Below, piece by piece: positions 5,334 through 34,245 of a DNA stretch of 34,306 nt. The first letter of the stretch is position 1. The number at the start of each line of letters is the position of its first letter. The stretch covers positions 1 through 34,306 of the forward strand of contig MVRV01000024.1 in assembly GCA_002068015.1 (NCBI GenBank), written 5' to 3'. Both the position numbers and the translations under genes were made by a program. The notes beneath the pieces were generated by a model, which saw nothing but the letters and a program-made list of their open reading frames with translations, made no database searches and had not been told where the DNA came from. The stretch is from Smithella sp. PtaU1.Bin162 (GTDB lineage: Bacteria; Desulfobacterota; Syntrophia; Syntrophales; Smithellaceae).

Positions 5334-6170
5334 ATGCAACTGGAGATCAAGCTTAAAACCAAAAAAGACGCGATCATTAAATTTGACTATTTATATGAAA
5401 TGCATTCGGCGCTGATGAGTAAGATCATGAACTATAATCCCGATATGGCAAAAGAACTTCATGAAGGGAAACATAAGAACAGGATCAAGCTTTTTGTGTT
5501 TTCGCCATTGAACAGTATGCCGAATCCCAGGCTGGTGGATATTGAAGGAGAAAAAAGAAAAAGAATGATGCTTGGCGAACGCTTATGGTTCAGAATAGCA
5601 AGTCCGATCCCTGAATTTCTGAATACTCTCGGCGAAGCGATCCTTTCGGCAAGAACCCTTAGTTTTGGTGACAATGATTTCAATGTGACGGGAGTTAACA
5701 TCGTGGCGCCTCCCGAATTTAAAGAAGAAATGATATGGCGTTCTTTTGGACAATCTGCATCAATATGTACTACCTGGAGTCCTCGCTCTTCAGAAAAGAA
5801 ACTTTTTATATATCCCGATACGACACCAGAAGGCAGTCCCGATTGTGCAAAACTTCTTGCGGCAAATCTGCATCATAAATTTTTACGTCTGAATGAAATT
5901 CGTGATGATATTGCAAAATCCTGGCTTGCGGATGCTGGGCTGAAGGAATTGCCTCCGGAAGAATGTATCCGTATTGAATTCCTTCCTTTATCAGATAAAC
6001 AAGAATATCGAACTATTATGCATTATGGAAAAAGCAGTGCTATAAAGTCATGGCGCTGTCCAGTGAAGGTGAAGGCTCCTGTTCCTATTCAACGGTTAAT
6101 CAGAGTAGCCGGGCTTGGTTCACTGAATTCGCAAGGCTACGGACTTGTCGAGGAGGGCAAATCATGCTGA
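5334..6170 (+). CDS. cas6: CRISPR RNA endoribonuclease Cas6
   Basis: Cas6 cuts the long CRISPR transcript within each repeat to release guide RNAs. This 278-residue protein has the ordinary Cas6 length. It ends in the diagnostic glycine-rich loop, VAGLGSLNSQGYGLVEEG at about residues 257-274, which in the family holds the repeat RNA. A histidine near residue 24 (YEMHSALMSKI) is a candidate catalytic residue by position, not proven. AAGGGA lies nine bases upstream of the ATG. It is the first gene of the cas operon and overlaps cas8b by 7 bases (ATGCTGA). The array repeat contains a CCAC-CGAA-GTGG hairpin; cutting just after it would leave the 8-base 5' handle TTAGAAAC, as expected for a type I-B system. 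Confidence 0.9.
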   Translation: MQLEIKLKTKKDAIIKFDYLYEMHSALMSKIMNYNPDMAKELHEGKHKNRIKLFVFSPLNSMPNPRLVDIEGEKRKRMMLGERLWFRIASPIPEFLNTLGEAILSARTLSFGDNDFNVTGVNIVAPPEFKEEMIWRSFGQSASICTTWSPRSSEKKLFIYPDTTPEGSPDCAKLLAANLHHKFLRLNEIRDDIAKSWLADAGLKELPPEECIRIEFLPLSDKQEYRTIMHYGKSSAIKSWRCPVKVKAPVPIQRLIRVAGLGSLNSQGYGLVEEGKSC

Positions 6171-8155
6171 TAAAATACATGGACGAGGTCATACAACGTG
6201 GTGCATATGACATTAAAGAAAGCGGTTCTGTAAATGTTTATCTTTCAGAACTGAAAGAATTCATTGAAAAACCTAATTCGAAAGGAGAAAAAATACCATT
6301 AGCCGAGTGGCATATAACCGGAGAAGGTCTTGTCCCGCGTACATTACTACATTATGACGATACTTCAGACGGGAGCAACACCCTAAATGGTAGTTGGCAA
6401 AAATTTTTCGCCAGTAAAAAATCTTTGGGAGAAACAATAATATATAATGGAAGTTCTATTTTTTTTAAGGATGGAACGCCTAACTTTGGAGGTGTTGCCA
6501 AGGCCGCTATTTATATGAGATATTCAGAAGGTTTTTTAAATTGGGTAAGCATGTTCGATCTGGTTGCCGCTGAAAAAATCAGAGTACAGTTGCCTTTATT
6601 CGAAAAACTGATAGAAAATGATAAAACAAAAAAAATTAAAAAAGAATGGAATAAATTCAAACCGCCCCAAGAAGATTGGGCGCTTTCTGTACTTTGCACC
6701 CTTTCAGATGGAAAAAAAATAGTTTTAGGTCTTGCTGATATAATTGACGGAGATTGGGATGAGCTAAAAGAAATGAATGTGGATATCGAACATTCTATTG
6801 AATTTATGAAGTTTCTGAAAGCTCCAAAGAAGGAAGTTGCGGAGAAAACAAAAAAGAACATTTCCGAAGAATTTCAGATGGGAAGCGGATTAGGCAGAAA
6901 TGCCTTTGGAAAAACGTATAAGCTTGATGATATTTCCGACTCTGAATATACAAGATTAATGGGAGCTCTTACCTTAAGTGAACGTAAACCTTTATTGAAG
7001 GCTAATCAGTTAAGCTATCCTGTAAAAGTGTCTCCCAATCCAGCATCAAAGTTACTATTTCTTCCTGAAGGCGATTTAAAATATAAAGAACTGGAGAAGT
7101 TTGTTGACTCCGAGAATAAGAAGCGAGAAATATTCTTGGAAGATAAGAAAGCCAAGAAAAAGAATAAAGAAAAAAATGAAGATCAGGAAAGAATCATAAC
7201 TGAACGGCCAGACTTCATTCCCATTCCCGCCTCCTGTGCAACACTATTTCTTTCTAATATCGAAAAAAGTGGCCCGAAGAAAAAAATAATAATTCAACAG
7301 GTCTTTCCCGGAATATCATTAAGATATCTTCAATGCCTGAATCAGGAAATATTGAACTCAGGCATCCAAATGTCGATTGTCGGCTACATGAAAAAAGCTC
7401 TGACGTGCCAAGACAGCGACACACCCTGTGTTTATAACTACTGGACAAAAATTTTCACTTCGGCTTTACAAAAAAACTATGTATCAGCAAATGAAGTTTT
7501 CTATAGCCTTCAACGATACGGCAAGGCATTTAGCGGTGAGGAGCTCATTTCTGGCAGGAAGGCCGGGGAATATTTTCGCGTAGTTGGAAAAATACGACGA
7601 CTCCAGCACCTTATTTACATAGCTATAAATACACCCCAAAAACTGGATGATATAGGTTTTGAGGCAGAATTAAAATCAGTTGAACAATATCAACTTACAA
7701 TAAAAGGAGTGTTTGAAATAATGGCTACCCGTCCTCAAACTGCCGACCTCGCAGGACCTGTCTATGAGCTCTTGTGGGAAAAGCAAAAAATGAAGCTGGA
7801 TGCATTTGTTACTCAAGCGTGGCAAGGCGTTCCGGGAGAAGAGTTCTCGCTTTTTATCAAAGGCGCATTGGTCGGTATTTTGCTTAACGAGTTGACTTAT
7901 GCGGTTACCACATCAGGAAGAAGCTTCTCTGTTACACAAGGCCGCCATCCTTCAACGCTGAGAGGAGAACAGATTATTTCCCTGGTAACCAAAGGAATCG
8001 GCTTGCTCATGAATCTTAATGAACAAAAAAAGTTTAACTGCAATACATTGCCCTTTATAAACTCCTGCTTGGAAGACAGCCGCAAGGATACATTCAATTC
8101 AGGCTTGATAATGGGTATGGTTTTTCATTTTAAATCAAACGAGAAGGAAGCATGA
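6164..8155 (+). CDS. cas8b: Type I-B Cascade large subunit, Cas8b-like
   Basis: A 663-residue protein in the slot of the large Cascade subunit, which recognises the PAM and recruits Cas3. The start at 6164 follows a strong AGGAGGG; a longer reading from 6050 lies inside cas6 and is rejected. Large subunits diverge quickly, so the assignment rests on position, size, and the surrounding Cas6, Csh2/DevR-type Cas7 and Cas5, which together point to subtype I-B. Visible features are a highly charged Lys/Glu-rich linker near residues 305-345 and a helical C-terminal part (from about 520) containing GRHPSTLRGEQIISLVTKGI. That C-terminal part starts at an internal ATG with its own strong ribosome binding site (see the Cas11 entry). 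The stop overlaps the cas7 start as ATGA. Confidence 0.85.
   Translation: MLIKYMDEVIQRGAYDIKESGSVNVYLSELKEFIEKPNSKGEKIPLAEWHITGEGLVPRTLLHYDDTSDGSNTLNGSWQKFFASKKSLGETIIYNGSSIFFKDGTPNFGGVAKAAIYMRYSEGFLNWVSMFDLVAAEKIRVQLPLFEKLIENDKTKKIKKEWNKFKPPQEDWALSVLCTLSDGKKIVLGLADIIDGDWDELKEMNVDIEHSIEFMKFLKAPKKEVAEKTKKNISEEFQMGSGLGRNAFGKTYKLDDISDSEYTRLMGALTLSERKPLLKANQLSYPVKVSPNPASKLLFLPEGDLKYKELEKFVDSENKKREIFLEDKKAKKKNKEKNEDQERIITERPDFIPIPASCATLFLSNIEKSGPKKKIIIQQVFPGISLRYLQCLNQEILNSGIQMSIVGYMKKALTCQDSDTPCVYNYWTKIFTSALQKNYVSANEVFYSLQRYGKAFSGEELISGRKAGEYFRVVGKIRRLQHLIYIAINTPQKLDDIGFEAELKSVEQYQLTIKGVFEIMATRPQTADLAGPVYELLWEKQKMKLDAFVTQAWQGVPGEEFSLFIKGALVGILLNELTYAVTTSGRSFSVTQGRHPSTLRGEQIISLVTKGIGLLMNLNEQKKFNCNTLPFINSCLEDSRKDTFNSGLIMGMVFHFKSNEKEA
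7721..8155 (+). CDS. cas11: Putative internally translated Cas11 small subunit
   Basis: An ATG at 7721, codon 520 of cas8b and in the same frame, is preceded by AAAAGGAG at 7702-7709 with an 11-base gap. This is as good a ribosome binding site as any in the operon, although it lies in the middle of a gene. The product would be 144 residues, mostly helical, starting MATRPQTADLAGPVYELL. Types I-B, I-C and I-D are known to make the Cas11 small subunit by internal initiation in the large-subunit gene, and the size and C-terminal position match. No separate small-subunit gene is present in the operon. Translation is an inference from the site. Confidence 0.6.
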   Translation: MATRPQTADLAGPVYELLWEKQKMKLDAFVTQAWQGVPGEEFSLFIKGALVGILLNELTYAVTTSGRSFSVTQGRHPSTLRGEQIISLVTKGIGLLMNLNEQKKFNCNTLPFINSCLEDSRKDTFNSGLIMGMVFHFKSNEKEA

Positions 8156-9111
8156 AAATGGTTAAAATTAATTCTTTGAAATCTGAATCCGGCAATGCAT
8201 ATATTCTATTTGGGTTTGAAGCTATTCAAGCTCGTCCTAACCTTGATCCTTATACATCAACCTTGCGGACAAATGATGAAACGATGCAGGTTTTTACCTC
8301 CGACGTTCATCTCAAACACCATGTGAGACGCGGGATAAAAGCTTATGCGACAGAAAAGAATATTGCCAAGCCTGAAGCTACAATATTCTATGAAAAAGAA
8401 GACGAGGCAGGAAACTCTCTTGATTTCGCAACTCGGCTGAAACTTGTTCGTGCGGCTTATTCGATAGACAGTAAAGGTGAAGATAAAAAAGATGCATTTG
8501 TTCGCTGTCTGGATTTACCGCTGTTTGGCTATGTTCATGCAATAAAAGGAGAGAATTTTAACGTTACAAATTCAGCTAATACATTGTTCCGTCCTATAAC
8601 TTTCCATACCTGCGAAATATATTCTTTGGGACGTAACAATGCCTTTCCTACTGAAAAGGAGGGCAAAACTCAGGAATCTGCAGGATCGGCAACAGTCGAT
8701 TCTCTGGAATATGGATTCTTTCTTGCATTATGGGAAATCAATCTGAACATGCTCAAAATCAATGCATCGGAACACAAGGTTGTCGCGTGGGAAAAAGAAG
8801 GATATGCCGGATGGCTGGATATCCTTATCAACGGAATGTGGAAGGCTTATAGCACAGACCGCTATCCATCATTCACTCAACGTTCACAGTTTGCCCAGTT
8901 CGTAGTCGGCTGGAAGCCGGAAGGCGAACTCAGCTATGAAAATCCGGCAGACCTTATAAGCAAACTGGACAAGAAGAAAATTACATCCCACGCAGAGGCA
9001 ATCACTGCTCTCAACTCAATACTTCCGAATTATCTGAATGGATGGGGGGCTAATGAAGGAAACATCTTCGCATCCCATATGGCGGGAAACTGCAATGTCA
9101 ATCTGAGGTGA
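8152..9111 (+). CDS. cas7: Cascade backbone protein Cas7 (Csh2/DevR type)
   Basis: Cas7 polymerises along the crRNA and forms the backbone of the interference complex. The 319-residue product has the N-terminal signature of type I-B Cas7: LFGFEAIQARPNLDPYTS, then RTNDE, then TSDVHLKHHVRRGIKAY. This corresponds to the family pattern N-DP...D...SDV-LK-R-VR. The middle contains FGYVHAIKG and NVTNSANTLFRPITFHTCEIY. The ATG overlaps the cas8b stop (ATGA) and GAAGGAAG lies just upstream, so it is translationally coupled. A later ATG (codon 3) is an alternative. Three bases separate it from cas5. The length is normal and nothing appears broken. Confidence 0.93.
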   Translation: MKMVKINSLKSESGNAYILFGFEAIQARPNLDPYTSTLRTNDETMQVFTSDVHLKHHVRRGIKAYATEKNIAKPEATIFYEKEDEAGNSLDFATRLKLVRAAYSIDSKGEDKKDAFVRCLDLPLFGYVHAIKGENFNVTNSANTLFRPITFHTCEIYSLGRNNAFPTEKEGKTQESAGSATVDSLEYGFFLALWEINLNMLKINASEHKVVAWEKEGYAGWLDILINGMWKAYSTDRYPSFTQRSQFAQFVVGWKPEGELSYENPADLISKLDKKKITSHAEAITALNSILPNYLNGWGANEGNIFASHMAGNCNVNLR

Positions 9112-9114
9112 AAG

Positions 9115-9834
9115 ATGGCATTTCTCTTTTTTAATTTGAGCGGGGATATGGCAATGTGGAGAAACCCCTATGAATCCATGGGGTCATTCTCCAGTCTCGG
9201 TCCAGCCCCTTCCAATATAGCAGGGCTTCTCGGTGCCGCTCTTGGTTTCCCGTCTCCACGTTCTCTTGCCGCTGGACAACAGGATTCCAAGAAACTCAAG
9301 GATCAGATGAAAAAAGGTCTGCCGTGGCCTGTTTCTCCGGAACTCTTGAAATGGGAACATGATAATGATTATCATGTGGCTTGTCGCTGGACAGGGGGTA
9401 CACCGTATCGGATGCCATGGAATGTAAACGGGGTTAAAGAGATAAGCAAAGGCGACAATCTTCGCTTGCAGCAGCAAGTAATAGAAAAGCCATCTTACGA
9501 TGTTCTCGTGAAATTGAACAGGGAAGAGGCTGATCGATCCGCGACGGCGTTAAAAAATCCAGCATTTCCACTGTTTTTAGGGGCTTCGTTTTGCAGAGCC
9601 ATTGTCAAAAATATTGATATTATGGAAAATATTCCGGACGGAGGCAACTGGGCAATGCATAAACAATATGTATTTGGCGAAGCAACTCCTTTTACAAGGC
9701 ATGTGATCAATGCTGAAGAAACTTTCGAACGAGTCGTTTCTGATGGTTATTGGGTTTATCCCGAACCCTCTAATCCCGGCGAAATACTGGAAGATCCTTT
9801 AGTAAAGGGATATTGTTTTTTTGAAAAGAAATAA
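9115..9834 (+). CDS. cas5: Cascade subunit Cas5 (type I-B)
   Basis: Cas5 caps the 5' handle of the crRNA in the complex. The 239-residue product begins with the conserved Cas5 N-terminus, LSGDMAMWRNPYESMGSFSS then LGPAPSNIAGLLGAALGFP. This matches the family pattern G--A-FR-P--------P-PS-I-GLLGA-LG. Since a dedicated Cas6 is present, this Cas5 is expected to be structural rather than the processing nuclease it is in type I-C. GAGGTGA just upstream of the ATG is the ribosome binding site. The gene sits three bases after cas7 and two bases before cas3. A Met at codon 11 (MAMWRNP) is a less likely start because it removes the first strand of the fold. Confidence 0.93.
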   Translation: MAFLFFNLSGDMAMWRNPYESMGSFSSLGPAPSNIAGLLGAALGFPSPRSLAAGQQDSKKLKDQMKKGLPWPVSPELLKWEHDNDYHVACRWTGGTPYRMPWNVNGVKEISKGDNLRLQQQVIEKPSYDVLVKLNREEADRSATALKNPAFPLFLGASFCRAIVKNIDIMENIPDGGNWAMHKQYVFGEATPFTRHVINAEETFERVVSDGYWVYPEPSNPGEILEDPLVKGYCFFEKK

Positions 9835-9836
9835 CT

Positions 9837-12212
9837 ATGCTACTTTTAAGTCATGGAAGAAATTCAAATCTGTTGCAGCATATTCAGGAAGTTTGTCTTG
9901 CCGCAGAAAATCTGGAGGAAAAGATTATATGTGCGTGCCATGATCTGGGCAAAGCAACCAAGCCGTGGCAAGATTACATAATCGGAAATGACGGAGTTTC
10001 TCCACATCATCATGCGGCAACAGGTGGCCTTCTTGCGGCAATACTTATAAGGCTCCTTGACCGTCCGGATGCAAAAATATGGTCATTGGCAGCACTTCAT
10101 GCAGGAGGCGCACATCATTCGCATCTGGGCCTGTCTGCAAACAACAAGGCGGAATTTTGTAAAATAGGTGATGATAGGCAGGCCGAATATTTTTTTACCG
10201 ACAAAAACTGTGGTATCCCTTCTATATTACCAGAAGTGCAAGAGGAATATTTCAGTAAAGCATGGGCGAAATTTCGTGATCTTGCGCCGCTTATACCCGC
10301 AAAAATAAACGAATTCAATAATTATTGGGAAATACCATTCGATCAGCGTTTGAGAGCATTCCTTGCCGCAAGAGCCATCTTGGCAAGACTTTGTTTTCAG
10401 GATCATGAATCTGCCGCAAAACAGTCCGGCAAAAAAGAATCTGTGATTTCATGGAGTTCGGCGTACCCTGAAAAGGATTTCAGAAAGAGAATTCCCAAAT
10501 TATTTCCTCCTCCTCAAAAAAAGATTCACCAACTCCGTTCTATCCTCAAAGAGGAATTTCATAAGGTAGTGGAAGAAAACAGTCTCTTTTATTTTATTGA
10601 TGCACCAACCGGGCTCGGAAAGACTGAAACAATGCTTTCCGCTGCCGAAAAATTGCTGGAAAAGCACAAGCATTCAAAAATAATTTTTGCTGTTCCCCAG
10701 ATATCGATAGCAGACCAGATTTTCGAAGAATACTTCAACGGCAATGACAACGCCCAGATATGGAATTATATCAGGCGCGAAAAGAAAATGCCGGATAAAA
10801 ATGCTGATGAAAGTTACCGGGACAATGACAACCCGGCATTCAATCTCGAAACAGCAGTACAGCCTTTCAGTGAATCATACAACATAACTACTTTTAATCA
10901 GGTACTTATGGCAATGTGCCACCCTGAAAGAGAACGCTGTATCAGAGGACTGGGACTCAAGAATGCAATAATAATCATGGATGAGTTTCATAAACTTCCT
11001 CTCTGCATTTTGCCATACTTCTTCAGAATTGCCAACGCCTATGCTGTCCAACACAAATGCCGCTTCATCTTCGGCTCGGCGACTCCACTTGAAGAATTCC
11101 AGTATCTTGGTCTTGACGGAACCGGGCGTATTCCCCAAGAAACAAGCGTGGGAATATATAAAGACAATGCGATAGACAACCGTCGCCAATATATTAATAT
11201 CGGGAATCTGAACATTGATGCTCTCATAGAAAAAATTGAAAGCTTTCACGACAGTTCAGAGAAAAATCTTCTCGTTGTCTTGAATCTGATAGGAGAAGGC
11301 ACATGGCCATTGCTTAAAGCATTTCACGGGTCTTATAACCCGTGGAAACAATTAGACTGTCTCAAAGCAGCGGAGTCAGGTCGTTCTATAATCTTTCTTG
11401 ATGGACTTGTCCCTCCAATTCTCAGACGACAGATAATAAGAGCCTGTAAAGAAATTATGAAGAGCAGGCCTGTAACTCTGATATCAACTCAAATGATTGA
11501 GGTCGGAGTTGATCTTGACTTTGATCATGCGATAATTGATTATCAGGGCCTTGCCTCTATAATACAGAGAGGAGGACGTGCTGGACGTGAAGGCAGAGAC
11601 ACCCCGTGTCCTATCGAAGTATTTTCATTGATTACACGGGAGAGCAAAAGTTCGTTCGAAACACTTAGCGATATTGTTTTGCAAAACGATCCCCGTTCAG
11701 GTGATACAGCATTTGCTGATATCACCTCAAAACTTTCAGAATTCTGGCGAAAGGAACGGCGCTTTTTTAGTCAGTGGGAAAATACAGGCCTGAAAGATTC
11801 CGATCTCACGGCCAAGCTTCTGGAAATACAGAACAAGATTTTTCTTGATAGTTCTGAATCTGGCTTGAATGAGATGCTGGATGATTTTTTTGCCCAATCA
11901 CAGGCCGCAGGAACTCTTGGTTGTAATTTTCTTCAAGCTCAATATATAGCGGAACTTTTCACTTCTGATTATGGGACAGATATCCTCTTGCTTGAGGATC
12001 TGTCAGCAATGGAACATATTGATTCTCTCGTAGTAAAGATTAAGTCCGGCAATCCTGAAAAAGACGATTTTAAGGAACTTAACAAGTTTATTGCAGACAG
12101 GAAAATCTCTATAAGTGAAACGCTTCTTCCTGAATTAGCCTTGAATAAAGTTGGCACAATCGATATTAAAGACAATTTGCAATGTATGATGATCGCTGGT
12201 TCGATATTATGA
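9837..12212 (+). CDS. cas3: CRISPR helicase-nuclease Cas3 (HD + DExH)
   Basis: Cas3 is recruited by target-bound Cascade and unwinds and degrades the foreign DNA. The 791-residue protein has both parts in one chain. The HD nuclease is N-terminal: His6, His15, the His35-Asp36 pair in CHDLGKATKPWQDYI, HHHAATGG at 57-64 and HAGGAHHSH at 88-96. The SF2 helicase follows, with Walker A DAPTGLGKTE near 254, DEFH (motif II) near 381, GSAT (motif III) near 412, and motif VI IQRGGRAGREGRD near 576. All key residues look intact. It starts two bases after the cas5 stop with only a weak GAAAAGA site, so coupling to cas5 is likely. Its stop overlaps the cas4 start (ATGA). Confidence 0.95.
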   Translation: MLLLSHGRNSNLLQHIQEVCLAAENLEEKIICACHDLGKATKPWQDYIIGNDGVSPHHHAATGGLLAAILIRLLDRPDAKIWSLAALHAGGAHHSHLGLSANNKAEFCKIGDDRQAEYFFTDKNCGIPSILPEVQEEYFSKAWAKFRDLAPLIPAKINEFNNYWEIPFDQRLRAFLAARAILARLCFQDHESAAKQSGKKESVISWSSAYPEKDFRKRIPKLFPPPQKKIHQLRSILKEEFHKVVEENSLFYFIDAPTGLGKTETMLSAAEKLLEKHKHSKIIFAVPQISIADQIFEEYFNGNDNAQIWNYIRREKKMPDKNADESYRDNDNPAFNLETAVQPFSESYNITTFNQVLMAMCHPERERCIRGLGLKNAIIIMDEFHKLPLCILPYFFRIANAYAVQHKCRFIFGSATPLEEFQYLGLDGTGRIPQETSVGIYKDNAIDNRRQYINIGNLNIDALIEKIESFHDSSEKNLLVVLNLIGEGTWPLLKAFHGSYNPWKQLDCLKAAESGRSIIFLDGLVPPILRRQIIRACKEIMKSRPVTLISTQMIEVGVDLDFDHAIIDYQGLASIIQRGGRAGREGRDTPCPIEVFSLITRESKSSFETLSDIVLQNDPRSGDTAFADITSKLSEFWRKERRFFSQWENTGLKDSDLTAKLLEIQNKIFLDSSESGLNEMLDDFFAQSQAAGTLGCNFLQAQYIAELFTSDYGTDILLLEDLSAMEHIDSLVVKIKSGNPEKDDFKELNKFIADRKISISETLLPELALNKVGTIDIKDNLQCMMIAGSIL

Positions 12213-12709
12213 GCAATATGCACATAACCGGAAAAGAAATCAGCTACTTATATGTATGTCAGAGAAAGCTCTGGCTTTTCCATCATGGAATCAGACCGGA
12301 ACTAGAAAATGTCAATGTCCAGATCGGAATGCATATTCATGAAACGACCTTTACCCGCGAAGAAAAAGATATTCCGTTAGGCGACGTAGGCGTGATCGAC
12401 TGGGCTTCATTCAAGAACGGATACATCCACGAAACTAAAAAAGGGAAAACCCCCGGCAAAGGAGATGATGCACAAGTACGTTATTATCTCTGGTGGCTGA
12501 ATGAGAACGGAATACAGATTTCAGAAGCAAGAATCCATTATCCTAAAATCAAACAGACTAAAACCGTCTTATGGGATAATGAAGCAAAATCCAGAACATT
12601 AAAGGACATGGAAGATTGTCGGAAAGTTATAAACACTGAAGCTCCACCGTCCCTCCATGAATACCCTTATTGCAAATCGTGCGCATATATGGAAATATGT
12701 TTCTCATGA
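12209..12709 (+). CDS. cas4: CRISPR adaptation nuclease Cas4
   Basis: Cas4 trims prespacers and selects the PAM with Cas1-Cas2. The 166-residue product has the RecB-type nuclease signature: Asp in GVIDWASF and the E-x-K motif in HETKKGK. It also has the iron-sulfur ligands of the family, one N-terminal Cys in YVCQRKLWLF and three in the C-terminal YCKSCAYMEICF. The chosen start forms an ATGA overlap with the cas3 stop; ATG at 12218 is an alternative, and the frame remains open upstream to 12182. No strong ribosome binding site is seen, so coupling from cas3 is likely. It overlaps cas1 by four bases, grouping cas4-cas1-cas2 as the adaptation module. Confidence 0.93.
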   Translation: MSNMHITGKEISYLYVCQRKLWLFHHGIRPELENVNVQIGMHIHETTFTREEKDIPLGDVGVIDWASFKNGYIHETKKGKTPGKGDDAQVRYYLWWLNENGIQISEARIHYPKIKQTKTVLWDNEAKSRTLKDMEDCRKVINTEAPPSLHEYPYCKSCAYMEICFS

Positions 12710-13752
12710 ACCTATATCTCACAAGAGCTGGAAGACTTCGCCGCAAAGACAATACGTTGTCATTCGAAATGATGAACCTGCCTGAAGAAAAACTGATCTC
12801 GGATGAAGAATCCGAAGAGATCGAATACATGAATCCCGAGAAGAAACATGCCTTGCCGATAGAGACCATTGACGCAATATATGTCTTCGGCGAAATGACC
12901 TTCAACAGCAAGCTTGTAAATTTCCTCGGACAAAAGAAAATACCCGTGCATTTCTTCAACTATTACGGGAATCATTGCAATTCTCTTTTGCCGCACGCGG
13001 AACAGCTTAGCGGCGATCTTGTCATAAAGCAGGCGGAAGCTTTTAAAGATCAGAAAAAACGTTCTGCATTCTGCAAAGCTTTGCTTGATACGACATTTCA
13101 CAACATCCTCTCTGTGCTTCAATATTATCAGCGAAAAAAGGGTTCCCTCGAAAACGAAATAACTAAAATCAAAAACCTTCAGGAGTCACTGAATGCCTGC
13201 AATTCCCCTGAAGAAATGATGGGGATAGAAGGAAATGTCAGAAATATCTATTACTCCTCATGGAAAAACTGGATAGGCGGACCGGCTTTGAATTTCAAAA
13301 GGGTATATCATCCGCCGGACAATCCGCTCAATGCGATCATTTCTTTTTTAAACAGCCTGCTATATACGGCATGCGTGAGTGAACTTTATCGCACAGCTTT
13401 ATATCCGGGGATTTCATATCTCCACACACCTCAGACCAGACGTTTTTCTCTTGCTCTGGATATTGTGGAGCCTTTCAAACCACTCATTGTTGACAGGCTT
13501 ATATTCCGTTTATTCGACCGGAAAGAAATCTCAGACCGCGATTTCCGGCAATATACCAATGGAATGTTGATGACAGATGAAGCTAGAAAACGCATATTAT
13601 CCGCATGGGATGAACAATTACGACAAACGGTCGATTATCCTCCGCTGAAACGTTCCGTCTCGTATCGGCAGTTGCTGCGTCTTGACTGCTATAAGCTTAT
13701 CAAATTTCTCTTGGAGGATCAGGAATTTAAACCATACAGGATTCAATACTGA
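12706..13752 (+). CDS. cas1: CRISPR integrase Cas1
   Basis: Cas1 inserts new spacers at the leader end of the array together with Cas2. The 348-residue product carries the metal ligands of the family: Glu175 in MGIEGNVRNIYYSSW, His240 in YLHTPQTRRFSLALDI and Asp252 in the same motif. HFFNYYGNH near residue 83 and RKDNTLSFE near 13 are typical of the type I-B branch. The start at 12706 overlaps the cas4 stop as ATGA; a longer reading from 12670 lies inside cas4. Between RKDNTLSFE and PIETIDAIYVFGE there are about 30 residues rich in Glu and Asp (LISDEESEEIEYMNPEKK), longer than I would expect for this loop. The gene ends in a TGATG overlap with cas2. Confidence 0.95.
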   Translation: MNLYLTRAGRLRRKDNTLSFEMMNLPEEKLISDEESEEIEYMNPEKKHALPIETIDAIYVFGEMTFNSKLVNFLGQKKIPVHFFNYYGNHCNSLLPHAEQLSGDLVIKQAEAFKDQKKRSAFCKALLDTTFHNILSVLQYYQRKKGSLENEITKIKNLQESLNACNSPEEMMGIEGNVRNIYYSSWKNWIGGPALNFKRVYHPPDNPLNAIISFLNSLLYTACVSELYRTALYPGISYLHTPQTRRFSLALDIVEPFKPLIVDRLIFRLFDRKEISDRDFRQYTNGMLMTDEARKRILSAWDEQLRQTVDYPPLKRSVSYRQLLRLDCYKLIKFLLEDQEFKPYRIQY

Positions 13753-14141: not shown

Positions 14142-17100
14142 GTTTCCCTCCCACCGAAGTGGATTAGAAACAATGTTTCTTTCCGTGAGTCGCGCCAGGC
14201 ATCGAAGGGTTTCCCTCCCACCGAAGTGGATTAGAAACAGTTTTGTATTTCTTCCGAATTCATTCCGTCAGCGTCGTTTCCCTCCCACCGAAGTGGATTA
14301 GAAACATTAAGAGCTACGCATTCGTGTAGAAATGTTCCCTGTTTCCCTCCCACCGAAGTGGATTAGAAACGACGATCTGTCAATGAGTTTTTTCGCGGTT
14401 ACATTTGGTTTCCCTCCCACCGAAGTGGATTAGAAACCGGGTATGAGGCCTTTCGCAATCGTGCAGGGACTCGGGTTTCCCTCCCACCGAAGTGGATTAG
14501 AAACCAATGATACCTTATTGGCTTGCTGATCAAGCAGATTGGTTTCCCTCCCACCGAAGTGGATTAGAAACAAATAGGTTTCCGCATCGGCAAGCGAAAT
14601 GTAGGGTTTCCCTCCCACCGAAGTGGATTAGAAACACATTCCAGATTTTTTTAGTTCACCTACGATATTTAGTTTCCCTCCCACCGAAGTGGATTAGAAA
14701 CATACTTTCAAAATCCTGTTTGAAATCCGAGTCGGAGGTTTCCCTCCCACCGAAGTGGATTAGAAACTAAACTAAAGGAGTCTTTAGTTTTGAGCTTCAA
14801 AAAGTTTCCCTCCCACCGAAGTGGATTAGAAACCCTCGAATGCTACTCCGCCTCAAATCCCGCTGAACGTTTCCCTCCCACCGAAGTGGATTAGAAACCG
14901 GAATCTTAAAAGAATCTTAAAAGAAAGGCAAAGTTTCCCTCCCACCGAAGTGGATTAGAAACCCGCCAGTTGCCAGCTAGCCCCAGCCAGAATCATTAGT
15001 TTCCCTCCCACCGAAGTGGATTAGAAACTGCCGAAGGCATTTTAAGGAAAATGGGTATAGCCGTGTTTCCCTCCCACCGAAGTGGATTAGAAACCAGAAA
15101 GTAAAGGGTATCAGCATGTCCGAAGTGTGGGTTTCCCTCCCACCGAAGTGGATTAGAAACACTCTTCGGAACGCTCGAAAAGATTTGCATATCTGCGTTT
15201 CCCTCCCACCGAAGTGGATTAGAAACTCATCATACGCTACATTCAATACCGTGATAACTGATGTTTCCCTCCCACCGAAGTGGATTAGAAACCAGGGTAA
15301 ACGGATTCACGAAGGGCGGGTTGCCTAGTTTCCCTCCCACCGAAGTGGATTAGAAACCGCCGAAGTCTTCGTCACTGATATTATTCTTGTCCGTTTCCCT
15401 CCCACCGAAGTGGATTAGAAACTGAAATAAACATAGATGGCAACTGGAACACGGGCAGTTTCCCTCCCACCGAAGTGGATTAGAAACGGCGATGAGCTTT
15501 AAACTAAAAGAAAGGAATGGAAAGTTTCCCTCCCACCGAAGTGGATTAGAAACTCGTCTCTATGCTGTTCCTGAATTTCATTAACACGGTTTCCCTCCCA
15601 CCGAAGTGGATTAGAAACCCGAGCGCGGCCAGCGTTTCAAAAGAAATCTGCCTGTTTCCCTCCCACCGAAGTGGATTAGAAACAAACTGAACTTGTTATC
15701 TGCGTTCCCACGGAAATCGTTTCCCTCCCACCGAAGTGGATTAGAAACATCATGGAATGATAATAACGGGTTGTCTCGGAACTGGTTTCCCTCCCACCGA
15801 AGTGGATTAGAAACTTTGAAAAATTGATAATGCGATATTCTCTGGTTTCGGTTTCCCTCCCACCGAAGTGGATTAGAAACTAAAATTCGTCCAACCGGAA
15901 TAATCGGGGCCTTGAAGTTTCCCTCCCACCGAAGTGGATTAGAAACCAGATGTTACGGCGCAGGCGGATTTTGATAATTCGGTTTCCCTCCCACCGAAGT
16001 GGATTAGAAACGTCAATTCTGTTTGTTTTACGAGATAGCGGTAAACGTTTCCCTCCCACCGAAGTGGATTAGAAACCAAAATAAAACGGCTCCCATAATT
16101 ATAGAAAATTCAGTTTCCCTCCCACCGAAGTGGATTAGAAACTTTTAAAGCCTATCACGAAAACTGAATTTATTAATGTTTCCCTCCCACCGAAGTGGAT
16201 TAGAAACCTTGAATTTCCAGCAGCTACATTAAAAGGGACATTGGTTTCCCTCCCACCGAAGTGGATTAGAAACAATACAGTTTTTTATCTTGACAAACTC
16301 TATAAAAAGTTTCCCTCCCACCGAAGTGGATTAGAAACCTCAGACAATTAGGGGTACGTCGCTCCTGCGTTTTTGTTTCCCTCCCACCGAAGTGGATTAG
16401 AAACATGATTCCGAAGAGGATTGAATTATGATTTTCTGCGTTTCCCTCCCACCGAAGTGGATTAGAAACGGATAAAGGATATTAAACTCCTCAAAATACT
16501 CTTTCGTTTCCCTCCCACCGAAGTGGATTAGAAACCGTAAACGTCTTAAATTCCATGACTTCGAGGGAAATGTTTCCCTCCCACCGAAGTGGATTAGAAA
16601 CGCTTGAAGAATGCTATCAAGATAAAACAGCTTGAAGGTTTCCCTCCCACCGAAGTGGATTAGAAACATTAACGGAAAGATAAAGCACATGCCATTACTG
16701 GACGTTTCCCTCCCACCGAAGTGGATTAGAAACTATTATCAACTCCTGTAGTCGTCTGAGAAGAGGCCCGTTTCCCTCCCACCGAAGTGGATTAGAAACC
16801 CTCGTAGCTATCGAACGGCCCAGCCAGCTTTACAAGGTTTCCCTCCCACCGAAGTGGATTAGAAACCGTGATATTCGCAATCTTCTTGATTATGCGTCTG
16901 AGTTTCCCTCCCACCGAAGTGGATTAGAAACAGAGCTATCTCTCCAGTCTCACGGTAGGTCAATATTGTTTCCCTCCCACCGAAGTGGATTAGAAACATA
17001 AGGAAAATAGTGCCAAGACTTTTTGTTTTCGTTGTTTCCCTCCCACCGAAGTGGATTAGAAACGAATTCGCTTTCTCTGTAATCGTAAGTCAAGAGACAG

Positions 17101-18166
17101 TTTCCCTCCCACCGAAGTGGATTAGAAACCCTTCTTGTCGATTTTTGTTATCTCTATATAGAGGGGGTTTCCCTCCCACCGAAGTGGATTAGAAACGAAA
17201 AGGGATAAAATACGCAGTTTCGCAGATTAGTAGTTTCCCTCCCACCGAAGTGGATTAGAAACCAACCCGGACACGTTTTCGCTGATTTTGCAATTTCGGT
17301 TTCCCTCCCACCGAAGTGGATTAGAAACATTCGTTGTTTTTAGACGCGAGATCAGCGTCGACCGTTTCCCTCCCACCGAAGTGGATTAGAAACTCATTTA
17401 ACAAGGAGGATTTATTTATATGAACGAAGTTTCCCTCCCACCGAAGTGGATTAGAAACATTCTTTCCTTTACTTTCCCCTGGTCGGAATCCGCGTTTCCC
17501 TCCCACCGAAGTGGATTAGAAACTAAAATCAACGAATATGGGAATAATAGATGTCTATGGTTTCCCTCCCACCGAAGTGGATTAGAAACACATGCGCCGT
17601 GCGGATCAAGCTGGCATACGCCGAAGTTTCCCTCCCACCGAAGTGGATTAGAAACAAGATAACTTAAAGTCAATTCAAACCGAACTCGAAGTTTCCCTCC
17701 CACCGAAGTGGATTAGAAACCGGAATTAAATTTAGTGTGCATTGATGACTCTGTGAGGTTTCCCTCCCACCGAAGTGGATTAGAAACGCGTGAGTCCGTT
17801 GCATCGTATCTAACTAAAATAGGTTTCCCTCCCACCGAAGTGGATTAGAAACAGTTCCAGCGCCCAGCAGTATTCTTGAGTGGCACCGTTTCCCTCCCAC
17901 CGAAGTGGATTAGAAACCGTGGACGAATCCTCGACGGCGACATAGCGGAAATGTTTCCCTCCCACCGAAGTGGATTAGAAACAAGTTACCCTCCCGACGA
18001 CCGGGATAAACGTTGGGTTTCCCTCCCACCGAAGTGGATTAGAAACCAAGGGGAGATGAAAAACACGAAGCGCACAGCGCGGGTTTCCCTCCCACCGAAG
18101 TGGATTAGAAACGAAGTTGAACATTACTTAAGAACAAATAAAAGATTTGTTTCCCTCCCACCAAAG
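14142..18166 (+). CRISPR. Type I-B CRISPR array: 61 intact 30-bp repeats, one truncated repeat, 61 spacers
   Basis: The repeat is 30 bp, begins GTTTCCCTCCCACC and ends GTGGATTAGAAAC. All 61 complete copies read identically. The first starts at 14142 and the last complete one at 18083. Spacer lengths are 34 bp (3), 35 bp (21), 36 bp (29) and 37 bp (8). A 62nd repeat at 18149-18166 keeps only its first 18 bases with one change (G to A at position 15) before an IS begins. The repeat has GTTTC/GAAAC inverted ends and a CCAC-CGAA-GTGG hairpin; cleavage after the hairpin would give the 8-base handle TTAGAAAC. The sequence identity of all repeats to the distal end suggests an array kept in use. No two spacers appear identical by eye. 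Confidence 0.98.
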
Positions 18167-30203: not shown

Positions 30204-30293
30204 ACTATATTTGAGAGTATCGGAGCTGGTGAAAATATTTCGGAGATATTTCAAAAAGAAATAATTGATTGTGAACAGAGGATAAGAAAGTGA
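30204..30293 (+). pseudogene. C-terminal remnant of a gene upstream of the AAC(3)-amidase fusion
   Basis: The frame reads FESIGAGENISEIFQKEIID then CEQRIRK and a stop. It resembles the end of the following protein (PGIGEEIVDACADMVKNAEK then RIR). Its TGA overlaps the GTG start of the next gene (GTGA), the usual mark of coupled neighbours. No start or body precedes it, so it is probably the tail of a lost paralog. Confidence 0.4.
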
Positions 30294-32341
30294 AAAATCA
30301 TTCAAGGCGTTCTATGAAAAGCGAACTGCGGAAAAATAAATCTTCCGCAGTGAAGCAACTGTTAAAAGACTTTGAGAAACTGGGGATAAAAAAAGGTTCC
30401 CGGGTTTTTATTCATTCGTCATTCAAAAGCCTCGGGTTATCTAAAGATATTTCGCCGGAAGATGTTGTCGGCATCCTGAAAAAAGTGGTTGGGCCTTCCG
30501 GGACGATCGGGATGCCCACCTTTACTTATTCGTTTTCAGAGGACAAGCGTTTCAACCGGGAGAATTCTCCAAGCGCCACCGGGATTCTGACGGAAGCGTT
30601 CCGCAAATCTGAGGGAGTTTTCAGGAGCATCAGTCCGTCTCATTCCGTGGCGTTTTGGGGCTGCGGAGCAGAATATTTCGCGCATTTGCGCTACGGTATT
30701 ACCCCCTATAATATCCGAAGTCCCTTCGGGAAGCTTTACGAGCATGATTTCACGATAGTAATGCTGGGTTGCGGGCTTATGCCAAACTCAACGCTGCACG
30801 CTATTGAGGACTGGGCCGATTTGCCATACTGCAAGAACTCTGTCTCTACATGTTACAGCGCTTACAGCGGTACCAGAGATACCGGTTTGCCCTATCCCAA
30901 AATGCCTCTGGGGCACCGTGACTTCTACAAAGAAAAATCCAAATATGTGTCCCTGATGATGCGTCATGGCTCAATAACGTCAGGCAAGGTTGCCGATGCG
31001 ACAGTGTATTGTATGAAGGTACGCGAACTTGTCGATATATGTATGAAGGAACTGGACAAACATCCCGATCTGTTCCTGTGCGACGATCCTGGTTGTATAA
31101 GTTGCCATCATAATAGGCTGGGGCTGGACGAATGGAAAAGGCGGGGCGGAAGCGGCTGGGAGCAAGTCTGGATAGGGGCGGCAAAGACATGTATTACGCC
31201 AGGAGTCGGAACTTACGCCAATCACGGCTGGAGCGTTGGCACCCCGTGCGAAGAGGTACATGATGACATTTACTGTCGAGTTATCGTCTTCAAAAACAAG
31301 GCGGAATATTCGGCGTTGGTGTCTCTGGAGGCGCTTCTGATAGAGGCCGATCTTGCCGGTGTCTATAAAAAGGCGGTGCATGAGAAAACTAAAATAAAAC
31401 CTGAAAACATAATAATCTGCGTGACTCATACCCATTACGGACCTTCATTTGGAACGCAGCGGCTTTATCCGGAAGTCCAGGATGAGAGTTATAGCAATTT
31501 CCTGTCGCAAAAAATATCCGGCTGTGTTTATGACGCCATGAAAAATATGGAGCCGGTGTCCGTTGCTTTCGCAATCCACAACGTGGACATCGGCAACATC
31601 AACCGCAGAGTCAGGATGCCGGACGGATCTTATATGTTTTATGCCAATAATTCGTTATCTCCGAAACCAAACGGAAAAGTATCAAGAGAATTCGCGATGG
31701 TCTTTTTCCGAAACTTCCAAGGCGATGTCAAGGCGGGGATTGCGGAATACGCCTGTCATCCGATATTTTTTCCTCCAGCAACGGCGGAAATTTCAGGAGA
31801 TTATCCGGGAGTTCTCTCCGCGACGGTCGAGAAGGAGCAGGGGAACAACGCGGTTATAACGTTTGTTCAGGGAGCATGCGGAGACCAGATGCCGCAACAC
31901 TACGGAGAGGGATATAAGGGAGCCTTGACAGCAGGGAAAAAGCTGGCTTATGCCTTCCTCTCTGAGGCGATTGATGCCAGATACAAGCCGTTGAAAAGTG
32001 TTATCGTAAAGACAAAAATGCACAAGATCGCAAATGCCGGAAAGAATGTTGTAACCATAATCCAGGCGCTGGTGATGAACGACATAGTTTTTGCTTTCGG
32101 CTCCAGCGAACTTTTCTACGGCCTGGTGGAAAGGTTCAGAAAAAAGCTGGGCTCCAAACGCGCGATACTCGCGGGGTATATCGACTCGTTGAGTTATCTC
32201 CCGGAAAAAAAAGACTTTGAGTACCCTACGTATGAAACCAAGCTCTGTGAAAAGGTGATAAAAGCAAAGCCTGGCATAGGGGAGGAAATTGTAGATGCCT
32301 GTGCAGACATGGTTAAAAATGCGGAGAAGAGAATCCGATAA
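30290..32341 (+). CDS. Fusion of AAC(3)-type N-acetyltransferase and neutral-ceramidase-like amidase
   Basis: A 683-residue two-domain protein without signal peptide. Residues about 18-265 match the AAC(3)/YokD acetyltransferase family: GSRVFIHSSFKSLG with His42, GTIGMPTFTYSF, then SPSHSVAFWG with His118, SPFGKLYEHD, and LGCGLMPNSTLHAIED with His170. Residues about 280-683 match the neutral/alkaline ceramidase N-terminal domain: IGAAKTCITPGVGTYANHGW, EVHDDIYCRVIVF, then VTHTHYGP (zinc-ligand motif), ACHPIFFPPATAEISGDYPG and FVQGACGDQMP. The first domain transfers acetyl from acetyl-CoA to an amine; the second hydrolyses an amide bond in relatives. Together they suggest remodelling of an N-acylated substrate such as an amino sugar or lipid. 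The start is GTG with AGAGGA upstream; ATG at 30314 is an alternative. Aminoglycoside resistance should not be assumed. Confidence 0.8.
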   Translation: MKNHSRRSMKSELRKNKSSAVKQLLKDFEKLGIKKGSRVFIHSSFKSLGLSKDISPEDVVGILKKVVGPSGTIGMPTFTYSFSEDKRFNRENSPSATGILTEAFRKSEGVFRSISPSHSVAFWGCGAEYFAHLRYGITPYNIRSPFGKLYEHDFTIVMLGCGLMPNSTLHAIEDWADLPYCKNSVSTCYSAYSGTRDTGLPYPKMPLGHRDFYKEKSKYVSLMMRHGSITSGKVADATVYCMKVRELVDICMKELDKHPDLFLCDDPGCISCHHNRLGLDEWKRRGGSGWEQVWIGAAKTCITPGVGTYANHGWSVGTPCEEVHDDIYCRVIVFKNKAEYSALVSLEALLIEADLAGVYKKAVHEKTKIKPENIIICVTHTHYGPSFGTQRLYPEVQDESYSNFLSQKISGCVYDAMKNMEPVSVAFAIHNVDIGNINRRVRMPDGSYMFYANNSLSPKPNGKVSREFAMVFFRNFQGDVKAGIAEYACHPIFFPPATAEISGDYPGVLSATVEKEQGNNAVITFVQGACGDQMPQHYGEGYKGALTAGKKLAYAFLSEAIDARYKPLKSVIVKTKMHKIANAGKNVVTIIQALVMNDIVFAFGSSELFYGLVERFRKKLGSKRAILAGYIDSLSYLPEKKDFEYPTYETKLCEKVIKAKPGIGEEIVDACADMVKNAEKRIR

Positions 32342-32393: not shown

Positions 32394-33194
32394 ATGGGCA
32401 AATTAAAAGATCAATTCTGGATATGGGGCCAGGCGGTGGATTCACATTATAATACTTTGAATAATCATTACAAACTGCCGGGCTCCAGTAAAATGACTTC
32501 ACTTGAGGGGGCCTATTACCTGGGTGTGAAAAACTGCTGCCGAGTGGTGATTCATGATGATCCCAAACCTCCGTTTAACCAAGACAACATGGCCCTGGTC
32601 AGTATGAGAGAAGTAGTATGGTCGGTTTTGGGTGCTGCCGGTTCCAACAGCAAGGGCATTGACGTGGAAGAGGTTCTGCGTCAAGCAGCAATTTTTCCTA
32701 ACATAAGAGGGGGAGTTCTTGACGACTTTTTCTCTGAACACGGCAGTGTCCCCAGGCTGTCAGTGAAAGAAGTAAATGATATTCACAAACAGCTTAACAA
32801 AAATACGCCTCCGCTTGACTTATGGATTGTGGTTTATGACTACCAGCTTGATAGTCCGGTCGGTGAATATCTTAACGAATGCGATGTGATTACTTACTGG
32901 ACTTGGAGAGGTTCTGAACTTGTACATTTGGATAAAAACTTTGAAAAGCTGAAAAAAATGACACCAGGCAAGCGACGACTGGCAGGATGTTATATGTGGA
33001 ATTATGGAGAAAGCAGACCACTGACTGTAAGGGATATGGAATTTCAGTGCGGCAAGTATTTGAACTGGATGGAAAAAGGTGATATTGAGGGAATAATATT
33101 CTGTTCTAATTGTATTGCTGATCTCGGTTTGGACACGGTCGAATGGACCCGAAATTGGATTGCCGAAAATGGAGAGGCCGTTTATGACTGGTAA
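32394..33194 (+). CDS. Conserved-looking hypothetical protein (266 aa)
   Basis: I cannot assign a family. The product is soluble, with no signal peptide, and Trp-rich motifs: FWIWGQAVDSHYN, PGSSKMTSLEGAYYLGVKNC, VSMREVVWSVLGAAGSNS, LWIVVYDYQL, CDVITYWTWRGSE, CYMWNYGESRPL. The alternation of hydrophobic strands (LWIVVYD, DVITYWTW, RLAGCYMWNYG, GIIFCSN) at even intervals resembles a TIM barrel of a glycosidase- or amidohydrolase-like enzyme. AGGAGC nine bases before the ATG is a good ribosome binding site. The gene follows the fusion gene by 52 bases in the same direction and is probably cotranscribed, so a role on the same substrate is possible. Confidence 0.6.
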   Translation: MGKLKDQFWIWGQAVDSHYNTLNNHYKLPGSSKMTSLEGAYYLGVKNCCRVVIHDDPKPPFNQDNMALVSMREVVWSVLGAAGSNSKGIDVEEVLRQAAIFPNIRGGVLDDFFSEHGSVPRLSVKEVNDIHKQLNKNTPPLDLWIVVYDYQLDSPVGEYLNECDVITYWTWRGSELVHLDKNFEKLKKMTPGKRRLAGCYMWNYGESRPLTVRDMEFQCGKYLNWMEKGDIEGIIFCSNCIADLGLDTVEWTRNWIAENGEAVYDW

Positions 33195-33459: not shown

Positions 33460-34245
33460 TTATTCATAACAAGCCGGAGCCAGTTTGAATTTAATCCAGG
33501 CAATCGGGTCATGGCCGGTAATGATTCGTGTTCCTCTGTCCCTCCTTAACGCACGTATTTTTTTGATAGACTGAATTGTATCTGAGGGACTGTAGCAAAT
33601 GCCTGGAAGAATATCTTCATCTAAAATCTCTTCTGTATATACACAGTCGCCCGTCAGCAAAGTCGGCCCCCATTTTTCCAGCTTAAGCAATAGCGACTGG
33701 GAGCCAGGCGTATGCCCTGGCGTAAAAACAATTTGAATCTTGCCGTCCCCGAATACATCATGATAATTATCCCGATAACCATCCAGAAGATTCCAGTTGA
33801 GATGTGGTTTGTCAAAATCAGCCCTGATATAAGTACTGGCTTGGAAAAAATCGGGCACATAGGCATATTGTAATTCGGCTCTCTGTGTATAATAAGCGGC
33901 ATTGGGGAAATCACCCGTCCCTCCCGCATGGTCCAGATGCAGGTGAGAGAAAATCACATGGGTAATATCTGTTGACTTAATCCCGATATCAGCCAATTGC
34001 GCAACGACATAATCATTTTCATTCATGAAAGGGTTACAGGTTTCTATGACATTTGCGCCCCAATGTTTAATCTTATCATGCGCAACCGCAAGGGCATTGC
34101 CGGTATCAAAAAGCACATTGCCCTTGGGATGTCTGATAAGAAAAAAAGGAACAGGAACATCAAATTCCTCTCCCAATCCACGTCCCATTGTGATAAGATG
34201 TTTTTTGGTTTTAATGATACCACACTGAAATATGTAAAGTTTCAT
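33460..34245 (-). CDS. Metallo-beta-lactamase-fold hydrolase, AHL-lactonase-like
   Basis: A 261-residue protein with the full zinc-site set of the metallo-beta-lactamase superfamily: SHLHLDHAGG (His101, His103, Asp105, His106), His178 in FTPGHTPGSQSLLL, Asp200 in LTGDCVY and His245 in ITGHDP. The order and spacing match the N-acyl homoserine lactonase branch (AttM/AiiA-like), which opens the lactone ring of quorum-sensing signals. Many relatives act on other esters or lactones, so the substrate is uncertain. No signal peptide is present, so it is probably cytoplasmic. AGGAA lies eight to nine bases upstream of the ATG. It is transcribed against the preceding genes and appears to be a separate unit. 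Intact length and motifs suggest a working enzyme. Confidence 0.88.
   Translation of the reverse strand: MKLYIFQCGIIKTKKHLITMGRGLGEEFDVPVPFFLIRHPKGNVLFDTGNALAVAHDKIKHWGANVIETCNPFMNENDYVVAQLADIGIKSTDITHVIFSHLHLDHAGGTGDFPNAAYYTQRAELQYAYVPDFFQASTYIRADFDKPHLNWNLLDGYRDNYHDVFGDGKIQIVFTPGHTPGSQSLLLKLEKWGPTLLTGDCVYTEEILDEDILPGICYSPSDTIQSIKKIRALRRDRGTRIITGHDPIAWIKFKLAPACYE

Follow-up and report, generated by a model that had tools for sequence, protein, structure and literature searches.

Does one gene near the end of the window (the whole stretch of DNA analysed here, 34,306 nucleotides) really encode an AAC(3) acetyltransferase and a ceramidase-type amidase in a single chain, as a preliminary description had it, and what could such an enzyme be used for? 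The first part can be answered with yes. Matches to PF02522 and PF04734, matches to solved structures in the PDB and the predicted folds agree on this assignment, and the gene product is a genuine single protein composed of an AAC(3)/Antibiotic_NAT domain and a domain with the neutral-ceramidase fold. The features of the gene and of its surroundings are listed in Table 1.

Table 1. Coordinates of the fusion gene, its domains and residues, and two neighbouring genes in the window.
Feature	Positions	Strand	Remarks
Upstream CBM9 protein, 1034 aa	21265..24369	+	PF06452
Ribosome-binding-like AGAGGA, 7 nt 5' of the GTG start	30277..30282	+	Read from the sequence
Whole fusion gene	30290..32341	+	683 aa, GTG start, ORF without internal stop
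Alternative start of the fusion gene, possible ATG	30314	+	
AAC(3)/Antibiotic_NAT acetyltransferase domain, residues 22-276	30353..31117	+	PF02522; AlphaFold2 match to 6mn3
Catalytic motif S167-T-L-H170-A-I-E173	30788..30808	+	Family motif T-x-phi-H-phi-A-E
Cysteine cluster C264...C269-x2-C272, end of AAC domain	31079..31105	+	Invariant in 3/3 fusions
Inter-domain linker, residues 277-292 (border, approximate)	31118..31165	+	W282, K283, G286 and W290 the same in 3/3 fusions
Neutral-ceramidase-fold Zn-hydrolase-like domain, residues 293-683, without C-terminal Ig-like domain	31166..32338	+	PF04734; AlphaFold2
H380-T-H382 = human ASAH2 His194/His196 (Zn ligand and catalytic His)	31427..31435	+	Invariant, 16 ceramidase-like proteins
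R439 = human Arg257 (catalytic)	31604..31606	+	Invariant
H490 = human His303	31757..31759	+	Invariant
M534 in G-D-Q-M-P, position of human Ser354	31889..31891	+	Met in 3/3 fusions
E607 = human Glu540 (Zn ligand)	32108..32110	+	Invariant
Y636 = human Tyr579 (catalytic/Zn ligand)	32195..32197	+	Invariant
Y648 = human Tyr591 (catalytic)	32231..32233	+	At least 90% conserved
Next gene downstream, 266 aa, 52 bp gap	32394..33194	+	No family match

A search for the same domain architecture recovered full-length versions in two other genomes (L041:3616-5640 and L128:1822-3879). The first, from a Verrucomicrobiia MAG (JAQUAF010000081.1), came from an alignment-based scan and is 45% identical to the window protein overall and 52% across the AAC part. 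The second, in genome G967, was found in a survey of related genomes and shows 42% overall identity. The domain border, which had been placed near 31130, was located in the linker given in Table 1. The suspicion of an assembly error at this position fails because the two other genomes show the identical junction. The assembly is fragmented (191 contigs) and the window is likely a foreign contig, both of which would fit an assembly chimera or a chance read-through of two genes. However, this explanation is already refuted and keeps practically no probability, since two further assemblies have the junction too and the linker residues are conserved.

Since the ceramidase rows were misplaced when fused and single-domain proteins were put into one mixed alignment, each half was aligned separately. 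The AAC halves of the three fusions form a single clade in the AAC-only tree (support 100/99) and the ceramidase halves do the same in the ceramidase-only tree (support 100/100). As both halves are monophyletic across the three fusions, the trees most simply suggest one fusion event, the product of which would have been kept intact down to 42-45% identity.

The fusion is rare. A pattern scan with the window protein as the single query gave no match in 84,980 genomes, and no fourth fusion was found in the genome surveys. All genome searches together covered 1,919 genomes, with other queries included and with partial overlap. Among the viral contigs searched no relative was detected, and in the plasmids searched no record covered 80% of the fusion. 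That the fusion is not known as a characterised enzyme was borne out in the searchable literature, which leaves most subscription papers outside: no description of an AAC(3)-ceramidase-type fusion was found there.

The AAC half is recognised by PF02522 (Antibiotic_NAT) over residues 41-253 with E=7e-39 and 134 bits, the Pfam cut-off being 25. In the PDB sequence search residues 23-276 matched AAC(3)-IVa (E=3e-15), and the AlphaFold2 model of this half matched the AAC(3)-IVa structure 6mn3 with E=8e-19 and a TM of 0.88 by target. The motif T-x-phi-H-phi-A-E, which includes the catalytic His/Glu dyad, is the motif of the Antibiotic_NAT family (PMC8956665). In the fusion its Thr is exchanged for Ser and its Ala for Ile while His and Glu are kept, and all 24 AAC domains that were aligned have H170 and E173. 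C264, C269 and C272 at the end of the domain form a possible metal knuckle, and the C269/C272-type motif is also present in the Zymogenaceae, the Chloroflexota and several M28-AAC proteins.

With AAC(3)-IVa and other members of the Antibiotic_NAT family (PF02522; FrbF, YokD, BA2930) the fusion has the fold, the His/Glu dyad and the C-terminal cysteine pair in common. It differs from AAC(3)-IVa in that it is 24% identical, is joined to a hydrolase, scores far under the resistance cut-offs and has relatives in a non-resistance gene context. A role in aminoglycoside resistance or drug modification, for which the AAC(3) fold and AAC(3)-IVa as the closest solved structure would speak, is highly improbable. 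All NCBIfam AAC(3) resistance models stay below their cut-off (AAC(3)-IV with 88.7 of 420 bits, others with 68.8 of 270 and 30.3 of 480), the neighbours of the relatives are catabolic, and FrbF, YokD and BA2930 are enzymes of the same fold without aminoglycoside activity (PMC8956665). Because it lies far under every NCBIfam cut-off, the AAC half is, as judged by sequence, an Antibiotic_NAT member and not a known resistance AAC(3).

For the second half, PF04734 (Ceramidase_alk) matches residues 322-539 with E=3e-9 and 36.7 bits, against a Pfam cut-off of 32.1. In the other fusions the same model reaches 34.8 bits (L041) and 30.3 bits (L128), the latter just under the cut-off. The PDB sequence search connected residues 369-519 with human neutral ceramidase 4wgk (E=6e-4). 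In the full-length AlphaFold2 model (overall pLDDT 71) the AAC half is good, the ceramidase half is poor and the inter-domain geometry is unreliable. Modelled alone, the ceramidase half obtained a pLDDT of 88.7 and a pTM of 0.91, and only neutral ceramidases match this model (2zws with E=4e-24 and 4wgk with E=1e-22, TM 0.77-0.80 by query).

Residues were numbered against the human enzyme by a profile alignment to 4wgk with His196 as the single anchor. The catalytic residues reported for human ASAH2 are His196, Arg257, Tyr579 and Tyr591 (PMC6952831). The anchored numbering reproduces three of these four, i.e., Arg257, Tyr579 and Tyr591, the fourth being the anchor itself. D325, H380, H382, R439, H490, E607 and Y636 are invariant in 16 prokaryotic ceramidase-like proteins. 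Going by 2zws and 4wgk, we take H490, like human His303, to be a Zn ligand. True neutral ceramidases have a conserved serine in the motif G-D-V-S-P, and the three fusions all carry Met534 instead; the equivalent serine is also missing from many bacterial relatives. In the human enzyme this residue, Ser354, positions or stabilises Arg257 (PMC6952831). The key His motifs had been described as intact in both halves, and this holds for the H170/E173 dyad as well as for H380, H382 and H490: the alignments retained the catalytic positions of both halves, and only the auxiliary Ser354 is changed to Met534. The conserved Zn and catalytic residues thus indicate that the amidase machinery is present in the ceramidase-type half, with one auxiliary residue exchanged.

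The catalytic-domain fold and all mapped catalytic residues are common to the fusion and the neutral ceramidases (human ASAH2, 4wgk; Pseudomonas aeruginosa, 2zws). However, the identity is ~15%, and with about 398 residues against 630-670 in ceramidases the ceramidase half falls short of the solved chains of 2zws and 4wgk by ~230-270 residues. True neutral ceramidases have a C-terminal Ig-like domain and are secreted or surface-exposed, whereas the fusion ends at residue 683 without this domain. By inspection, no signal peptide is evident in the N-termini of the three fusions, which would be expected of an enzyme that depends on acetyl-CoA and sets the fusions apart from the secreted ceramidases. 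Fold and residues place the second half in the ceramidase superfamily, but it should not be named a ceramidase because it is too short and lacks an evident export signal, the Ig domain and Ser354. Remodelling of ceramides or sphingoid bases, with a true ceramidase as the C-terminal half and an AAC half that acetylates the sphingoid base, would agree with the Pfam name and the fold match. Given the same shortness, the lack of an evident signal peptide and of the Ig domain, and the sugar-related neighbours described below, we consider it very unlikely.

The two partners also occur as separate genes. In three Zymogenaceae genomes (G111, G148 and G183 = JAFGAS010000074.1; loci L029/L047, L031+L032 and L033) unfused AAC(3)-like and ceramidase-like genes are located in one operon with the order AAC(3), SIS, a 290-aa unknown, GPH symporter, GlcNAc-kinase-like, ceramidase-like and NagA. 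These AAC(3)-like genes were the closest relatives in one genome survey, and the operon proteins are 27-31% identical to the AAC half and ~20% to the ceramidase half of the fusion. The NagA proteins score 282-304 bits, over the curated cut-off, and the kinase is weakly NagK-like. Like the fusion, the operon contains both partners, but as separate genes and with NagA, the GlcNAc-kinase-like protein, the SIS protein and the GPH symporter in addition. No mention of this seven-gene operon was found in the literature searched. Besides L041, 21 AAC(3) loci were compared, some of them with short flanks, and a ceramidase-like gene near AAC(3) was found only in the Zymogenaceae locus. In the Chloroflexota, two AAC(3)-like genes have sugar ABC transporters and a GlmD/AgaS-like SIS protein as neighbours.

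The ceramidase-like gene of three haloarchaeal plasmids shares a 4-bp overlap with a DUF4432/aldose-1-epimerase gene and has sulfatases nearby, and in one plasmid a PIG-L deacetylase is also close. Because the haloarchaeal copies sit among sugar-related genes, the name ceramidase may give a false impression of many prokaryotic members. The contexts of the relatives point to the breakdown of (partly sulfated) sugars and amino sugars, not of lipids or drugs, and support amino-sugar or other sugar metabolism as the probable pathway. Of the substrates suggested in the preliminary description, the amino sugar is favoured, because the unfused partners are found in an operon with NagA, NagK-like and SIS proteins and because ceramidase-like genes stand beside sulfatases and epimerases. 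The sphingoid base is disfavoured because no export signal is evident and the Ig domain is absent. In the Agrobacterium and haloarchaeal plasmid loci L137-L140 the genes are annotated as 'neutral/alkaline non-lysosomal ceramidase', and the haloarchaeal ones have sulfatases, epimerases, sugar aminotransferases and a PIG-L deacetylase as neighbours.

We tentatively propose, with somewhat less than even confidence, that the fusion is a bifunctional and most likely cytoplasmic two-step enzyme of amino-sugar catabolism, in which removal of an N-acyl group is followed by acetylation. The C-terminal zinc amidase with its neutral-ceramidase fold would free an amino sugar or one of its derivatives from the N-acyl group, which need be neither an acetyl group nor a fatty acid. 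The AAC(3)-type domain would acetylate the freed or an already free amine via His170/Glu173 with acetyl-CoA as donor. The product would be an N-acetylated sugar that is accepted by ordinary kinases and NagA-type deacetylases, and unusual N-modified hexosamines could in this way be led into the normal GlcNAc route. That the amide chemistry takes place on a sugar, that the steps follow in this order and that both halves work on the same molecule we infer only, and an exchange of acyl for acetyl on one molecule appears rather unlikely.

Both halves might also be active in one sugar pathway on different molecules or bonds, the fusion merely tethering them without any acyl exchange. The same Zymogenaceae operon would fit this, and in other bacteria M28/DUF4910 peptidase-like domains are joined to AAC(3) on either side, so that a fusion may signify co-expression with a hydrolase and not acyl exchange. 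However, the linker of ~15 residues, conserved over deep divergence, weakly suggests a fixed arrangement, and we place this possibility on the unlikely side. Alternatively, the ceramidase-like half could have a substrate that is not an amide, for example a sugar ester or lactone, while the AAC half acetylates an amino sugar of the same pathway. The unfused ceramidase-like genes adjoin aldose-1-epimerase/DUF4432 genes and not only amine genes, and the ~15% identity to ceramidases and the lost auxiliary Ser are in line with such a change. Still, it is quite unlikely, as the fusion retains every residue with a reported catalytic role in amide cleavage by human neutral ceramidase and the unfused copies occur with NagA and an N-acetyltransferase in the Zymogenaceae.

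AAC(3) domains of Verrucomicrobiota often carry an N-terminal M28/DUF4910-like domain in frames of ~900 aa, and elsewhere in bacteria AAC(3) is found with a C-terminal DUF2172/DUF4910 domain. Pfam matches gave weak values for the M28 link: E was about 1e-3 for M28 in one protein and 3e-5 for DUF4910 in another. Like the window fusion, these proteins unite AAC(3) with a hydrolase domain on one chain, here a peptidase-like (probable Zn) one, but the hydrolase family and domain order are different and they are much commoner in the survey. As such fusions recur, AAC(3) acetyltransferases may have been joined to hydrolases several times. It is doubtful whether this extends to the wider proposal of an N-acyl exchange enzyme, with the AAC(3) folds as a wider class repeatedly fused to amide-cutting hydrolases of the ceramidase type or the M28/DUF4910 type. 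Fusions of the M28/DUF4910 or DUF2172/DUF4910 type were seen at L083, L089, L092, L102, L106, L109 and L111 in Verrucomicrobiota and at L024 and L036 in the phylum Desulfobacterota.

A precedent for the proposed role comes from fungi, where RmNag is a GH3 N-acetylglucosaminidase joined to a glucosamine N-acetyltransferase (PMC4680927). The concept, an N-acetyltransferase combined with a hydrolase for amino-sugar breakdown, is the one proposed for the fusion, but RmNag consists of a GNAT fold and a glycosidase, whereas the window fusion consists of an AAC(3) fold and an amidase-type domain.

The AAC(3) and ceramidase families are both named for special roles, drug resistance and ceramide breakdown, by which they are also annotated and which most of their bacterial members probably lack. 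A fusion with both active sites kept, together with an operon of the separate genes, offers an assayable hypothesis: handling of amines and N-acyl groups in sugar breakdown. This may also bear on the origin of the aminoglycoside-acetylating enzymes, as their AAC(3) relatives would be amino-sugar acetyltransferases.

The neighbours of the fusion in the window are carbohydrate-related and include an IclR regulator, CBM proteins and two DUF6259 proteins. The upstream CBM9 protein resembles a 1055-aa protein of G479 whose gene directly precedes an unfused ceramidase-like gene, with PF06452 in both. The gene following the fusion is possibly co-transcribed with it. In G967 a sulfatase gene lies 24 bp downstream of the fusion. 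It was considered as a glucosamine sulfamidase, but despite a weak SGSH_C match we make no such claim, because it is matched best by S1 sulfatases, phosphonate monoesterases and choline sulfatase. Within the flanking DNA examined, nagA, a GlcNAc/sugar kinase and a SIS isomerase were found at none of the three fusion loci. At 33460-34245 on the minus strand the window encodes a metallo-beta-lactamase-fold protein that comes close to the family of the N-acyl homoserine lactonase AttM but, with 317.7 bits, stays under the cut-off of 390.

The phylum of the bin, Deltaproteobacteria/Desulfobacterota, also includes Candidatus Zymogenaceae. DUF6259, of which the window has two copies, is present in none of 39 relatives of the assembly, but in the Verrucomicrobiota, the phylum of L041, 23 of 241 genomes have it, with ~40% identity. 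Because of this distribution, it is probable that the contig either comes from Verrucomicrobiota and contaminates the bin or is a transferred segment; its origin is without effect on the fusion. Tetranucleotide composition did not discriminate between a foreign and a native contig. The DUF6259 genes, a pseudopilin and the fusion on the contig look Verrucomicrobiota-like, and the relatives of the assembly are Desulfobacterota.

A type I CRISPR-Cas locus with Cas6, Cas7-like, Cas5, Cas3, Cas4 and Cas1b occupies positions 5334-13752 of the window. For its Cas7- and Cas5-like proteins no subtype model scored above the cut-off except for a short Cas5 domain, and none matched the 701-aa protein at 6050. 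The Cas genes are followed by repeats at about 14473-17328 with a unit of ~66 bp (GTTTCCCTCCCACCGAAGTGGATTAGAAAC plus spacer).
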